The notes beneath the pieces were generated by a model, which worked only from the letters and a program-made list of their open reading frames with translations, was not told the origin of the DNA and did not search any database. Positions 1,603 through 41,216 of a stretch of DNA of 64,000 bases are shown here, piece after piece. Source of the stretch: a virus. The DNA is taken from positions 62,001-126,000 of the IMG/VR virus record IMGVR_UViG_3300036774_000066. The stretch is one strand, 5' to 3'. The number at the start of each line of letters is the position of its first letter. Within the stretch, counting starts at the first letter, position 1. The translations under genes were made by a program, and so were the position numbers.

Positions 1603-1794
1603 TTAAGACTTACTTAACTTGTCAACTTCCACCCATTTTCTATCACCACCAAAAAGTTCTACAATAACGACACTCCCTCTCTCATTGTCAGAAATACCTG
1701 AATTTTCTATCCCTGCAACATGCCCTGTGTAAAGTGTTCCCATTCCATCCCGAAACTCAACAAGAAGACCTACCTTTACTTCTTCTTTTTTCAT
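1603..1794 (-). CDS. Hypothetical small beta-rich protein (63 aa)
   Basis: It starts MKKEEVKVGLLVEFRDG with a GGGGAG ribosome binding site three bases before the ATG, and overlaps the stop of the radical SAM gene. The sequence has short beta-like stretches and glycines that suggest a small SH3/KOW-like barrel, but I do not recognise a family. It is probably co-translated with the radical SAM protein upstream. Confidence 0.65.
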   Translation of the reverse strand: MKKEEVKVGLLVEFRDGMGTLYTGHVAGIENSGISDNERGSVVIVELFGGDRKWVEVDKLSKS

Positions 1795-4586
1795 AATCTC
1801 CCCAATTTCTTGACAATTGCTTTACGGGTGCATAACTCACAAAACCGTGAATCATTCTGCTCATAAACATCAAAGTAGGTATGATTATTACACCCGGCTA
1901 CAGCACAAACTCCCAAACCTTCCCTGAAATACTTAATACGCTGACAAGAAAACTTCGTATAGACATCGAGAAACTTAATCCCGGTCATCGAAGATAGAAA
2001 AACAAAGGGATTCAACTTATTAGGCAAAGAAACCACCAACTCCCCGGTTGTATAACTAAGAAAAATCTCAGGTATTTCTGGCATCAAAACAGGGCTACCC
2101 ACTATCAAGTGAAAATCTGCAAACTTTACGTTCTTAGGATATACAATCCTTCGGTCAAAGTTTCTTGCACTTTCTCTAATAGAAATAACATCAACAGCAT
2201 CAGAAGGCTTAATAACAAGCATCTGCCAATCCTCATACTTTACTCCACGATAACCAACATCCACATACTTCAAGTCTACCATACCTAACGTCTTTACTTC
2301 AGGTGCTACTCTTGTATATGCTGCCTTCACTTCGTCAAGACTTGAGTATTCATTTCTAAGTAACACTTCTACAAGAAAAACTCCCCAAGAGTAATCTGGA
2401 ATATTACCCTTTTTTATCCCGATGAAATAAGAACACCTTCCTATTTCCCGCGTGCTCAAGACATAGTTATCCGGCAATTCCCTCATTATTCTTGACCAAA
2501 GGTATCTGAAATTAGACGCAACATTCAAGTATGAATACTCCGGCTCTCTCCATAACTTCACCAGCAGTTTATTTTGCGCTTGTCCCATCTCATTGAATGA
2601 CAAAACATCATCAACAGTTGTAGAAACATCAAACTCCCTCTCTACCCGAGCCAATCTTTTCTCTGCTGTATCACAATACCCACAAGCTACACACTCTCCT
2701 TTAAGCTGTGCAGGAGTTGACAAACAATGATTGATCTGCTGAAACTGTCGGATACTTCTATTAACCCGTACAAGATACTCTTTGTTCCAATCAATAATAT
2801 CATCGGGAAAGATAAAATCATAAGGCTTTTCATCAAAAACATCCTGTAAATCAATCCCCGCTCTATCAAGTTTCTCAATCAAAACCTTTACCCCGGCACC
2901 GTCACAGTCCTTCTTGTACACCACCAAACTATGATTGATTGACATATCCACAAGGAAAGGGGTAAAGACCCTTCCTAAGTCAATCATCAACTGACTCACA
3001 AAATTAGTCCACGCCCTCGAAGAAAACCTTACCTGCATTCCCATTTCATCAACAAACATCCGCAGCATACCCTCAAACGCTCTCTCCTCTCTCAAAAACA
3101 TCAAGTAAGTATTCCTCTTCTCCCACGCCATCGGAGTATTCGTACAGTAAATCAGGTGAGTAAAAGAAACCTCAAACTTAATACCAGCAGTACGCAAACT
3201 CAAAGCATAATCCCGCATCTCTTGAATAAAAGATACAAACTCCTTTTTGTCTTCCTCTGTCTCTCTACCCGTATAAATGCAGTACAACTTCACACTTTGA
3301 AAATGATGGTCAATACATCTGCGAATAGCTACCTTAAATTCTTCAGTCGAAATATTCTTATTAAGGTAATGCCTCATTCTCTCTGATATACCCTCAAAAC
3401 CATAGGAGATACTTCTCATTCCCAACTTATTAGCAAGTGTAAAGTAATCAGAACGTGCTGCTATTATATCTGCCCTCATAGTCATAAACAGCACACGAGG
3501 ATAAATCTCAAGACCCAATTTCACAAGGTCAAGATACCGAGAATAGTAATTGTTATTGAAACTCAACCAGCCTATCGAATTACACATACCAAACTTACGG
3601 GAACTAATCAAGTCACTCCGAATACGCTCCAATGACTTTTCTCTCCATCCCCCAGAGATATTTCCCTCATGACAAAAGCTACAAGACCCTCCTGAACTGC
3701 ATCCCCAAGAGATAATCACGTCCATTCCATCATCAGCAGGTTCAATTGACGAATATATAATTTTTCTAACGTCTTTCGGACTTGAATCAAAAGACTCTTC
3801 TCTATGATACTTGACTTTATCAGGGGCATCATCAATTACCTTGTTTACTTTGCTAATTCTCCACCTGTCTTTGTACTCGTACTGATACGCAAGAGGATGC
3901 ACAAAGTTTTCAAATCGGAAAAACTTTCGCAGTCTCTCCTCTTTACTTGTGTAAGGCTCTAACAAAGTGTCAATTATCTTAGGAATTACACCCTCACCAT
4001 ACCCAATAAAAGCACCGTCAATCAATGCTGTTTCTTTCCCGTCCTCTGAACTTCCTAAAAATACGTCTACAAAATCAGCAGAGTTTCCACCAACAAAGAA
4101 AAAAGGAATCCGATCTTCCTTCATGCGCTGAGTGTGCCAAATAGGAATAGCCGAATGATGAAGCAACCACGGAAGATTCATCTTTTCAGGAAGAACTGAA
4201 TTAGAAATCAAAACTACATCGAAGTCGAGCACACTCCGATGAGAAGCCACACCATGCCACACAGGAAGTTTATGCTTTTCGTAAAGAGAGAAATTCTGCT
4301 TCTCCGGCATGAATGCTATATCAACATAAACCTGATCCCCCAGGTTTTGCTTTATCAAGCTAATCAAGATACCATCTGCTGACCCTTTACACTTGGACAA
4401 ACCCTTCATCATAAAAGCAAGTAACACTCGTATCCTTGCCTTATCGAAATTATCTGGATTGTCAAGGTTAGAATCATAAACAGAGATAATCCCAGGGTCA
4501 ACGAAAGTCTTAATGTTCTCCTCTAAAACTTTCTGTATATGCTCAGATGTATTTATTATTTCTCTGTCTGCTGACATTCTTGCCAT
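1791..4586 (-). CDS. Very large radical SAM protein, B12-binding type
   Basis: A 931-residue protein. Residues about 110-215 resemble the cobalamin-binding Rossmann part of B12-dependent radical SAM enzymes (FFFVGGNSADF, then GAFIGYGEG). The iron-sulphur site follows at about residues 296-305 as GCSSGGSCSFC, which is spaced Cx5CxxC rather than the usual CxxxCxxC. A typical radical SAM barrel follows, with YGFEGISERMR. A cysteine pair ECVACGYC lies near residue 635. The C-terminal 90 residues carry further cysteines (CAVAGC, then CELC). Such enzymes use S-adenosylmethionine radicals for methylation, sulphur insertion or rearrangement. The substrate is unknown; modified nucleotides, tRNA or proteins are possible. 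It follows the 90-residue gene with a 2-base gap and looks like a complete reading frame. Confidence 0.8.
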   Translation of the reverse strand: MARMSADREIINTSEHIQKVLEENIKTFVDPGIISVYDSNLDNPDNFDKARIRVLLAFMMKGLSKCKGSADGILISLIKQNLGDQVYVDIAFMPEKQNFSLYEKHKLPVWHGVASHRSVLDFDVVLISNSVLPEKMNLPWLLHHSAIPIWHTQRMKEDRIPFFFVGGNSADFVDVFLGSSEDGKETALIDGAFIGYGEGVIPKIIDTLLEPYTSKEERLRKFFRFENFVHPLAYQYEYKDRWRISKVNKVIDDAPDKVKYHREESFDSSPKDVRKIIYSSIEPADDGMDVIISWGCSSGGSCSFCHEGNISGGWREKSLERIRSDLISSRKFGMCNSIGWLSFNNNYYSRYLDLVKLGLEIYPRVLFMTMRADIIAARSDYFTLANKLGMRSISYGFEGISERMRHYLNKNISTEEFKVAIRRCIDHHFQSVKLYCIYTGRETEEDKKEFVSFIQEMRDYALSLRTAGIKFEVSFTHLIYCTNTPMAWEKRNTYLMFLREERAFEGMLRMFVDEMGMQVRFSSRAWTNFVSQLMIDLGRVFTPFLVDMSINHSLVVYKKDCDGAGVKVLIEKLDRAGIDLQDVFDEKPYDFIFPDDIIDWNKEYLVRVNRSIRQFQQINHCLSTPAQLKGECVACGYCDTAEKRLARVEREFDVSTTVDDVLSFNEMGQAQNKLLVKLWREPEYSYLNVASNFRYLWSRIMRELPDNYVLSTREIGRCSYFIGIKKGNIPDYSWGVFLVEVLLRNEYSSLDEVKAAYTRVAPEVKTLGMVDLKYVDVGYRGVKYEDWQMLVIKPSDAVDVISIRESARNFDRRIVYPKNVKFADFHLIVGSPVLMPEIPEIFLSYTTGELVVSLPNKLNPFVFLSSMTGIKFLDVYTKFSCQRIKYFREGLGVCAVAGCNNHTYFDVYEQNDSRFCELCTRKAIVKKLGRL

Positions 4587-15475: not shown

Positions 15476-15739
15476 TTACTTTCGCACATCCCTCCTTTCA
15501 ATAGCCTCACTCACTTTGATTACTCTACCTCCTATCAACTTATCATTCATCTCAGTAATTGCCTTCTTGACAAGTGCTTCATTTTCCATCTCTACAAAGG
15601 CATATCCCTTAGATTTTCCTGTCTCTTTATCTTTGACAATAAAAACACCTACCACTTTCCCACACTCAGAAAAAGCAGCTACCAACTCCTCTTCCGACAT
15701 TCTAAAAGGGATATTTCCAACGTAAACTCTTTTAGGCAC
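15476..15739 (-). CDS. RRM-type RNA-binding protein
   Basis: The 87-residue protein is a single RNA recognition motif: RNP2 is VYVGNI at residues 5-10 and RNP1 is KGYAFVEM at about residues 45-52, with a short basic tail (EAIERRDVRK). Such single-RRM proteins occur in several bacterial groups and bind single-stranded RNA. They are rarely noted in phages. It uses a GTG start after AAGGAGTTTGTT. A role in controlling phage or host mRNA is likely but not shown. Confidence 0.9.
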   Translation of the reverse strand: MPKRVYVGNIPFRMSEEELVAAFSECGKVVGVFIVKDKETGKSKGYAFVEMENEALVKKAITEMNDKLIGGRVIKVSEAIERRDVRK

Positions 15740-33418: not shown

Positions 33419-34231
33419 CTAAGTCGTACACTCCTTCAAAACTTCCTGCATCGCAGCAACTCCCACAGCATCCCCAGACGATTGACAGTCTGCCATAATT
33501 GACTGAGTATAGCGAGAATGGTAGTGATCCCTAATCAAGTCTTTCTTGCGTGTAAACCACCCTCCAATATGAGGAGGATAGACTACTTCTTTTCCTACTG
33601 CCCGTGCTCCTGTTGAATCCGGGGGAACCTGTGCCACAATATCTCGCCCGTTAATCACACGAGTACAGTCAACAGGAAGCATATTATACTGGTCCCTAAA
33701 GTCCTTCGTCCCTGCCCTTGGACACCCGAAAAAGATTGCTGAGTGTGGTATGTCAAGCTGCTTCCCAACATACCCAGAGCAAAGCGTTCCTAACGCCCCA
33801 CCCCTGGAATGACCTGTAATCAGAAGACTTTTCAGCTTCCAGAACCTCCAAAAACTTCCAGCACTCTTCTTGGTCACATGCTCTACATCTTCCTCACCAA
33901 TAGACTGCTTGATATACTGCAACAAATACTGAGTAACCGAAGGCTCAAAGTATTCCCATGATGTAAAGAATCCCTTATGCACAACATCACTTTCCCATTC
34001 AGACTTTCCAGCCAAAGGCAAAATATCAAAGTTAGACACCCACCCAAGATCATCTGACGTTGGACAAAAGGCAATCACAATTCGATCAGAAAATTCTGCT
34101 ATAAAGGCATAGTCAGTATCGTTCCACATAGGAGTAAAAATCAAACTGTCCGCTACAAGAGGGTGCGACGAATCCTCTGGCTTATGAGAAGCCCTCTCTG
34201 CAAACCGCCATGCATCTGCAATTGCTTTCAT
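33419..34231 (-). CDS. Class 3 lipase-like alpha/beta hydrolase
   Basis: The 270-residue protein has the nucleophile elbow LLITGHSRGGALGTL near residue 137 (GHSxGG), a later aspartate in INGRDIVAQVPP near residue 191, and a histidine in RDHYHSRY near residue 236. This is the Ser-Asp-His order of class 3 lipases. There is no signal peptide, so it should act inside the cell or at lysis, perhaps on membrane lipids. A terminator follows. Substrate not known. Confidence 0.85.
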   Translation of the reverse strand: MKAIADAWRFAERASHKPEDSSHPLVADSLIFTPMWNDTDYAFIAEFSDRIVIAFCPTSDDLGWVSNFDILPLAGKSEWESDVVHKGFFTSWEYFEPSVTQYLLQYIKQSIGEEDVEHVTKKSAGSFWRFWKLKSLLITGHSRGGALGTLCSGYVGKQLDIPHSAIFFGCPRAGTKDFRDQYNMLPVDCTRVINGRDIVAQVPPDSTGARAVGKEVVYPPHIGGWFTRKKDLIRDHYHSRYTQSIMADCQSSGDAVGVAAMQEVLKECTT

Positions 34232-37531: not shown

Positions 37532-37556
37532 TGATAATACGTAAAAACACAAAAAA
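37532..37556 (-). promoter_or_regulatory. Candidate phage promoter (CGTATTAT motif)
   Basis: Minus strand ACGTATTATC right after the U-run of a terminator and before the KTSC gene. Same core as the other CGTATTA sites. Confidence 0.4.
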
Positions 37557-37583
37557 GGGGAAGAGCTTTCACTCCTCCCCTCC
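37551..37583 (-). terminator. Intrinsic terminator
   Basis: Minus strand GGGGAGGAG, 6-base loop, CTCTTCCCC with one G-U pair, then TTTTTT. It ends the structured RNA region downstream of the prepilin-like gene. Confidence 0.9.
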
Positions 37584-37587
37584 GGTC

Positions 37588-37815
37588 AAGCTGCCGTGCG
37601 ACAAAGCCGCTGCTCTACTTTGCCGCGTTACCCCACTACGGGCCTACACTTTTGTTGATAGAGCGTAGTGGCTCCACCCTTTTGTGTGCAGGGGCGAGAT
37701 GTTGGTGCCCTGTAAGTTTCGGCAACTTTCTCTAACGAACCGGGCATCCTTCGGGAAAACCCCGTAAGGCACGCGCTGGTCCGCTCTCTGTTAATACGCT
37801 GACCTCTCCAAAAAT
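37588..37815 (-). ncRNA. Structured non-coding RNA candidate
   Basis: This 230-base stretch between the prepilin-like gene and a strong terminator is visibly more G+C-rich than its surroundings and full of stems on the minus strand. They include 37634-37641 with 37665-37672 (8 bp, perfect), 37599-37607 with 37619-37627 (9 bp, one G-U), 37690-37694 with 37709-37713, 37715-37719 with 37725-37729, and nested stems in 37749-37770. A CGTATTA motif at 37793-37799 could be its promoter. It does not match tRNA, tmRNA, 6S or RNase P features that I can recall. Confidence 0.55.
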
Positions 37816-37817
37816 CA

Positions 37818-38219
37818 TCAGGACTTAGGCTTGTACTTTCGCAACAGACGACCATTACAATACGTCCCGGCTTTGTCCCATTGCCAAGGAGCATACCGAA
37901 ATACTGCTACCTCAACAGAATCCCCCTTCACCACATTGGCAAACTGACGGTCCTCGGAAGAAAAAGTCACGACCTCGTTGCCAATGTCAAGATCAACTGC
38001 AAAGGAAAATGTACCAGAGGGAAGCCCACCACCGGCACTACGCCCGGCAACCACAGACATACTCATGTTGGAACACGCCGTTACCTTTCCGATAAACTCC
38101 TTCCGAGAAAAGAACTTGTACCCCGCAGTATAGATAAGACTCCCGATGATTCCCACGATCACGACCACAACCATCAACTCAATGAGAGTGAAACCACGCA
38201 ACCACTTCTTCTGAAACAC
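37818..38219 (-). CDS. Type IV prepilin/pseudopilin-like protein
   Basis: A GTG at 38219, after GGGAGCCTGTT, gives a short basic leader FQKKWLRG followed by FTLIELMVVVVIVGIIGSLI. This is the class III signal of type IV pilins and type II secretion pseudopilins, cleaved between glycine and phenylalanine, with glutamate at mature position 5. A helical spine and a beta-like domain with two cysteines (VTACSN and GTYCNGRLL) follow. An earlier GTG at 38276 would give a longer leader. Host prepilin peptidase should be able to process it. Confidence 0.8.
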   Translation of the reverse strand: MFQKKWLRGFTLIELMVVVVIVGIIGSLIYTAGYKFFSRKEFIGKVTACSNMSMSVVAGRSAGGGLPSGTFSFAVDLDIGNEVVTFSSEDRQFANVVKGDSVEVAVFRYAPWQWDKAGTYCNGRLLRKYKPKS

Positions 38220-38342
38220 AACAGGCTCCCTTCTGTAAATGTGAAAAGGTACAAGGATAACTGGTTTTCGTGGCACACACCACGCGGGGAATCCCGTAAC
38301 CGCCTATTAGCCCTTCGCTATCCCTGTACCCAAAAATCCTTC

Positions 38343-39915: not shown

Positions 39916-40692
39916 TCACTCGCTCAATGTTTTGTGGATCGTCCAAAAGTCATCTGACAAATTCCGATCTGCGAGATAGTCATACGGAATTGTAAAATGC
40001 CCTGTCATTCCCCACGTCGCACCCCACGAGTTACGGACCAAAAACCGCTTCTGAGTATCATCATAGCCTACACACAGCACGGCATGACCTCCAAGAACCT
40101 GCTCACCAGACTTAGGCATATCCACAATACCCGTCTGTGCAACATACGAACCCTCAAAACTCTCATACACGGTAAACCCAAAAACAAAAGGATACCCCAA
40201 GGATAACTGAGTTCGCATGTCGTCAACTGTATTAAGACGGGTATAACTTAACGAATCAGCAATCTTATGTGGGGAAGCTGCTGCATAGCAAGACAATGAA
40301 GGCTTCTTTGTAAACCTTGAAATAATATACGGCCACATACTCTCAGGGCACACCCCCAAAGAAAACAAAGTCTTCACCCCGTCTCGTATCGCAGCACCGG
40401 AGTCATACCTGACAGTACCTTCAAGTTTCCTTTCGTTATAGTAGATAAAAAGACGACTGAACATTATTGGAGTCTTCTTATCCTTCAAGTCAAGAAACTC
40501 GATTGCAGCAGAAAGGGCATTGGCAGTACATGATCCCAACTGTCCCTGATCGTAAACAGGAGGACAAAAAGTTCTCAAATCTACCACAGGGGGAAGGGAA
40601 GGAATACTCTTTTTGTAAACATGGTCGCGTCTGTCAGGTAAATCCGGCTTCCATCCGTATCTACTCATCTCAGGCTTTGAAAAAATCCACAT
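39916..40692 (-). CDS. Papain-like (C1A) cysteine protease
   Basis: ATG at 40692 follows GAGGAGGAGTT. The 258-residue product has YDQGQLGSCTANALSAAIEF near residue 50 with the oxyanion glutamine and catalytic cysteine. Later come GGHAVLCVGYDD near residue 202 with the catalytic histidine and VRNSWGATWG with the asparagine. These are the three hallmarks of C1A proteases. No signal peptide is seen, so it should act in the host cytoplasm, on host or phage proteins. It lies downstream of the GroES-like gene and ends in a terminator. Confidence 0.9.
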   Translation of the reverse strand: MWIFSKPEMSRYGWKPDLPDRRDHVYKKSIPSLPPVVDLRTFCPPVYDQGQLGSCTANALSAAIEFLDLKDKKTPIMFSRLFIYYNERKLEGTVRYDSGAAIRDGVKTLFSLGVCPESMWPYIISRFTKKPSLSCYAAASPHKIADSLSYTRLNTVDDMRTQLSLGYPFVFGFTVYESFEGSYVAQTGIVDMPKSGEQVLGGHAVLCVGYDDTQKRFLVRNSWGATWGMTGHFTIPYDYLADRNLSDDFWTIHKTLSE

Positions 40693-40718
40693 AACTCCTC
40701 CTCTGTTAAAGTATAGAG

Positions 40719-41216
40719 TCAAGCTGGCTGAACTGAGTCCAACGAATCCACCCGAAATTCAGCATCGTCATAATGGATCAAAAAATATCGGTTACACCCG
40801 GCATTGACCTCCCTAACCGCGAGATTCTGAAACATCACAATATCCCCCACATTTACGTCAGGACGGCTGTAATTCCGACCCTTGGGAACATCAATCACCT
40901 GTTGACCAAAGCTGTTCCTACGCCCTCCCCCGGATGACCAATACACCGATTTCTCTCCAAGCCGCACAACCTTACCTATCCTCCACACACGCCAACACGT
41001 CGCCGGAATAATCAATCCAACTTTAGACTTTACTTCCTGCACAAGTGGCTCGACCATGATATAAGGCCCGATGATCGTCAACATATCGGCAACAATCAAC
41101 TCTCGACCACAACCCATACATCTACGACTCTCCCGTGCCTCTAAGACTTTTCCCTCGTCAACATCTTTCCATTCCCGTGTCTTGAGACAAAATTGGCAAG
41201 CATACGGCTCACTCAT
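40719..41216 (-). CDS. GroES-like co-chaperonin with N-terminal zinc finger
   Basis: Residues about 6-40 hold CQFC and CMGC, a zinc knuckle. The C-terminal 120 residues follow the GroES pattern: a first strand YIMVEPLVQE, then VGLIIPATCW, GKVVRLG, a long loop, VNVGDIVMFQNLAVREVN and a final strand FLIHYDDAEFRV. T4 uses gp31 in place of host GroES to fold its capsid protein. This protein could play a similar part, but the zinc finger and longer insertion are unusual. Similarity is by pattern only. Confidence 0.6.
   Translation of the reverse strand: MSEPYACQFCLKTREWKDVDEGKVLEARESRRCMGCGRELIVADMLTIIGPYIMVEPLVQEVKSKVGLIIPATCWRVWRIGKVVRLGEKSVYWSSGGGRRNSFGQQVIDVPKGRNYSRPDVNVGDIVMFQNLAVREVNAGCNRYFLIHYDDAEFRVDSLDSVQPA

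Follow-up and report, generated by a model that had tools for sequence, protein, structure and literature searches.

An orphan class III prepilin gene in the accessory DNA of a contractile-tailed phage

The open reading frame at positions 37818–38219 (minus strand) of the DNA analysed here is almost certainly a true gene of the phage, accessory in nature and encoding an orphan class III prepilin, and it joins a known but unstudied kind of gene that many unrelated phages carry. The window, meaning the whole 64,000-nucleotide stretch that was analysed, comprises bases 62001–126000 of a 156,609-base virus record. The record is that of a contractile-tailed phage: its portal, major capsid, head protease and tail sheath matched PHROGs and its baseplate J was similar to phage baseplate wedge proteins; the window carries DNA polymerase A, ligase and further replication genes, and nearly all of its genes lie on the minus strand. 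A profile search of the record for a tyrosine integrase (PF00589) found none, which would be compatible with the label “lytic” that the first-pass annotation had given to the phage.

The prepilin gene and its signal

The features of the gene and of the DNA on either side of it are as follows.

37818..38219, minus strand: prepilin-type gene, 133 aa, GTG start (N_methyl and TIGR02532 matches)
38193..38219, minus strand: class III leader MFQKKWLRG, with a predicted prepilin peptidase cut after Gly9 (from the sequence)
38100..38192, minus strand: N-terminal hydrophobic helix with F+1 and E+5, residues about 10–40 (AlphaFold2 model)
37818..38099, minus strand: orphan head domain, ~95 aa, two Cys (no family match beyond residue 42 bar a weak phmmer tail)
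38225..38231, minus strand: ribosome-binding-like site AAGGGAG
37554..37817, minus strand: folded non-coding stretch with a terminator-like hairpin at its end (z = -4.73; terminator 37583–37554)

The reading frame starts at the GTG at 38219, giving the 133-aa product; the DNA upstream reads AGAAGGGAGCCTGTT-GTG, with the GGGAG site 6 nt ahead of the GTG, and a second in-frame GTG further upstream (38276) would make the leader unusually long. Three residues of the short leader are basic and Gly stands at -1, and the mature sequence begins FTLIELMVVVVIVGIIGSLI; this start (FTLIELMVVVV), with Phe at +1, Glu at +5 and a hydrophobic stretch, fits a class III prepilin signal. The match to Pfam PF07963 N_methyl scored 30.6 bits against a cut-off of 21.2 (E = 2.2e-7 in a whole-library search) and was unique within the whole record, and the match to NCBIfam TIGR02532 scored 32.5 bits against a cut-off of 16.3; judged by these scores, the signal stands far above chance. 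The first-pass annotation had read a class III prepilin signal from the basic leader, the Gly at -1 and the Glu at +5; both the signal and its setting in the genome of a tailed phage were borne out. The two models share with the 133-aa protein the leader, Gly-1, Phe+1, Glu+5 and the hydrophobic helix, but they describe the signal alone and not a function.

Head domain and homology

All family and PDB matches of the 133-aa protein lay on the leader and first helix. The best PDB match was 1oqw PilA (residues 10–71, E = 0.0015), and a weak phmmer tail reached 1oqw and other pilins. AlphaFold2, run with no alignment, predicted a helix over residues 12–40, confident to about residue 30; the mean pLDDT by block was 61 (residues 1–10), 90 (11–20), 91 (21–30) and 52 (31–40), the values were below 50 from residue 36 onward (head range 34–47), and the head modelled alone had a mean of 34. 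The head was also compared with the DUF2500-like “CQHG” domain of the phage sequences L030 and L041 described below, and this candidate was rejected, the hhalign score of 12.5 falling inside the range of shuffled sequences.

Against the named pilin equivalogs (GspH, GspG, PilA, ComGC and others) the protein fell below every curated cut-off, reaching 30 of the 80 bits needed for the minor pseudopilin GspH; the first helix is common to GspH, GspG, PilA and the 133-aa protein, but the match is confined to the leader and that helix and there is no head homology. The protein has no Pro at +22 in the comparison with minor pseudopilin GspH, major GspG and type IVa PilA; lack of this residue is common in minor pilins and pseudopilins. 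A profile search against pilin and pseudopilin families, proposed in the first-pass annotation, matched the signal and first helix but reached no named family. The outcome was similarly divided for the opposing view set out there, that of a plain membrane anchor with no homologue: tblastn found no full-length or head homologue in phages (its low-complexity filter probably masked the leader), and exact 8-residue patterns found none in IMG/VR or GTDB genomes, but the signal is more specific than a plain anchor. PADLOC gave no match for the prepilin gene or its neighbours.

Comparison with related phages

A relative of the phage (L045) was identified by its major capsid protein, which is 94% identical. 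The two are colinear before and after the gene (as far as 34.9 kb and again from 40.8 kb in the window), at about 65–75% identity in DNA, and phage-family genes lie to either side of the prepilin gene; the gene is therefore not a chimera with host DNA at a contig end. The corresponding 6 kb of the relative holds other genes and no prepilin. Presence in related phages had been put forward as a check, and the result went the other way: an N_methyl domain was found in 0 of 21 records with related capsids (L045 and 20 more distant ones, some of them fragments), while 19 of 19 phage and viral records used as positive controls each gave exactly one match. The prepilin gene is thus accessory cargo. 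The G001 gene in the slot had an SPFH-like label that was weak (15.2 bits, below the cut-off) and had no Pfam match.

That the gene is a recently captured bacterial pilin-like gene, functionless and passing through, would accord with its absence from these 21 records, with its GC content of 49% compared to about 42% in core genes, and with its codon use (z = -3.2 against the phage core genes). The frame, ribosome site and signal are nevertheless all intact, some accessory neighbours deviate in GC or codon use as much or more, and prepilins recur across phages; we regard such a passing capture as improbable.

Prepilins in other phages

A query with the prepilin leader matched 173 of 50,697 GenBank phage records, a number which is at the upper end for true phages since a few records filed as phage resemble bacterial contigs or prophages. 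The matches include phages of Synechococcus, Pseudomonas, Vibrio, Aeromonas, Acinetobacter, Xanthomonas and Delftia; some already carry labels such as “pilin”, “PilE-like” or “similar to N-terminal part of fimbrial protein”, and PHROG 3433 is named “pilin”. The earlier impression that few phage examples exist was accordingly wrong. Pseudomonas, Aeromonas, Vibrio, Acinetobacter, Xanthomonas and Synechococcus hosts are often piliated. A strict codon pattern for GFTLIELMVVV found 33 stretches in IMG/VR.

In a panel of 19 records each held one prepilin, with sizes of 28, 31, 44, 59, 66, 67, 75, 99, 107, 127, 157 and 210 aa (GomatiRiver_11 and S-CAM7 are omitted from the sizes, their annotated starts looking wrong). 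The prepilin peptidase PF01478 was found in 0 of 16 records tested, this phage included, and neither PF06750 nor PF01478 was found in this phage record; with one prepilin per record and no peptidase in the 16, maturation would have to rely on the host. Several of the panel prepilins are headless: Aeh1 gp44 (28 aa), PX29 (31), PhiW-14 gp119 (44), PAK_P3 (59), the KVP40-like proteins (66–67) and Aes508 (75). These mini-prepilins resemble the protein studied here in being an orphan signal, one per phage, with no peptidase, but they lack a head, whereas the 133-aa protein has one of about 95 aa. The phage class III prepilin of PHROG 3433 (Synechococcus phage ACG-2014f and relatives) is close in length, 127 aa vs 133 aa, but its match is limited to residues 7–28 and the head is unrelated. 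What is conserved among phage prepilins is therefore the sorting signal and the presumed docking helix. The orphan and headless phage prepilins, as a wider pattern, are the more interesting part of these results; no literature was found on “phage-encoded pilin”.

Prepilin–SPFH pairs

In four lineages a prepilin gene adjoins an SPFH (band 7) gene: L030 and G002; L023 and G019, where the two reading frames overlap; the Xanthomonas phage PhiXhv-16; and the Aeromonas phages Aes508 and GomatiRiver_11. The pairs lie as follows.

L030:3874-5331, prepilin–SPFH pair
L023:1719-2719, prepilin–SPFH pair
L064:2501-4298, prepilin–SPFH pair
L061:1506-2719, prepilin–SPFH pair
L060:1303-2734, prepilin–SPFH pair

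Both genes are present but apart in three further lineages. Four adjacencies in seven lineages would be very unlikely to arise by chance in genomes of tens to hundreds of genes (a rough estimate of about 1e-6 to 1e-5). The same phage domain, marked by the motif VVFxCQHGxF and weakly DUF2500-like, occurs at L030:3874-4371 (minus strand) and L041:6007-6531 (plus strand); it follows a prepilin leader in L030, and in the 735-kb phage LR756501 a lipoprotein signal takes the place of that leader (the two copies are 41% identical in a MAFFT alignment), so the anchors are exchangeable.

The exchangeable anchors and the four SPFH adjacencies are the ground for the main rival to a role in pili, namely that the class III signal serves for membrane anchoring and sorting only and the head acts alone in the envelope, perhaps with an SPFH (band 7) protein. 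The pairing in those four other lineages suggests a role in a membrane complex and not one in pili. The gene at 37818–38219, however, is not beside an SPFH gene and its head is unlike the L030 domain; among 24 further viral contigs with a prepilin, many of which are short, none held Band_7; and in the 28-aa Aeh1 gp44 there is no head that could be anchored. For the present gene we consider an anchor unrelated to pili unlikely, although a serious contender.

Proposed role in the host

The first-pass annotation had proposed a pilin-like minor subunit which could enter the host pilus or type II secretion machine, and as a hypothesis we follow it in part. The product would be inserted into the host inner membrane during infection, where the host prepilin peptidase would remove the 9-residue leader and methylate Phe1; we think this processing quite probable, and ascribe it to the host enzyme because no such peptidase was found in the phage record. 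Once matured, the 124-aa protein could use its conserved N-terminal helix to slot in beside the pilins or pseudopilins of the host, its own unrelated head being predicted to face the periplasm, and so cap or poison the assembly of type IV pili or type II secretion filaments in the host, with less pilus-dependent adsorption of competing phages as the result. Of the effects considered, this block is the most likely, and we put it forward tentatively. Sequence evidence would support it: the signal is intact and above cut-offs, with start and ribosome site in place; the phages examined have a single prepilin each and, in the 16 records tested, no peptidase; and many unrelated phages keep a prepilin, in some pared to a leader and helix of 28–75 aa, the part expected to dock into a filament. 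Against it count the head, which gave neither a confident model nor a homologue, and the pairing with SPFH genes in the four other lineages.

A working minor pilin, which would join host pili and alter adhesion or the binding of DNA or phage (a gain of function and not a block), is compatible with the ~95-aa head and its two cysteines, and Synechococcus phages have full-length proteins annotated as “pilin”. The head, however, is without homology to minor pilin families, for which the GspH, GspG and PilA models cover the leader and first helix only, and an advantage to a host-killing phage is not evident; we give this possibility little weight.

To return to a block of assembly, type IV pili are a main phage entry route and serve motility, DNA uptake and virulence, and phage proteins that block them, such as the Pf phage protein and the PilB inhibitors, are an established strategy (PMC8764522, PMC11436027). 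The outcome reported for those proteins, lost pilus-dependent superinfection, is the one proposed here for the 133-aa prepilin; their targets, however, are the assembly machinery or the expression of pilin, and none was reported in these papers as a pilin mimic. Host-matured decoy prepilins, if real, would block pili in a way that differs from the motor inhibitors already known, and the idea lends itself directly to testing with the headless forms of 28–75 aa from cultivated phages of Aeromonas, Vibrio, Delftia and Pseudomonas. More broadly, and with considerable doubt, unrelated phage lineages may independently keep one orphan prepilin, often reduced to leader and helix, in some cases in an operon with SPFH, as a general device that takes over the host's prepilin peptidase and its type IV filament machinery, the present gene being one such case with a new head.

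Other features of the record

The folded stretch at 37554–37817 (minus strand) lies just past the prepilin stop codon; it is 55% GC and folds much more strongly than shuffled sequences, with a folding energy of -114 kcal/mol. It matched nothing in Rfam, even at E<5, was absent from the relative L045, and had no exact 25-mer in IMG/VR; phage matches covered only 33 bases at the terminator end. It may be just the end of the prepilin transcript or a separate RNA, possibly a new structured one.

The accessory region is flanked by genes for a papain-family cysteine protease and a class 3 lipase (39916–40722 and 33419–34231 of the window, minus strand). Elsewhere in the window are a 931-aa radical SAM protein with a Radical_SAM_N2 domain (1791–4586, minus strand), which is unusual for a phage, and a stand-alone 87-aa RNA-binding protein of the RRM type (15476–15739, minus strand; 82.6 bits). 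Close to the portal gene, at about 14–22 kb of the record (minus strand), eight otherwise different reading frames (L004:14259-19771 and L005:1756-2289), one of them with a weak WGR match, share a short start motif (MSLLQEMYE, MGLLSKIYE, LFLDEA) which is absent elsewhere in the record and resembles the T4-type capsid-targeting propeptide of internal or ejected proteins.
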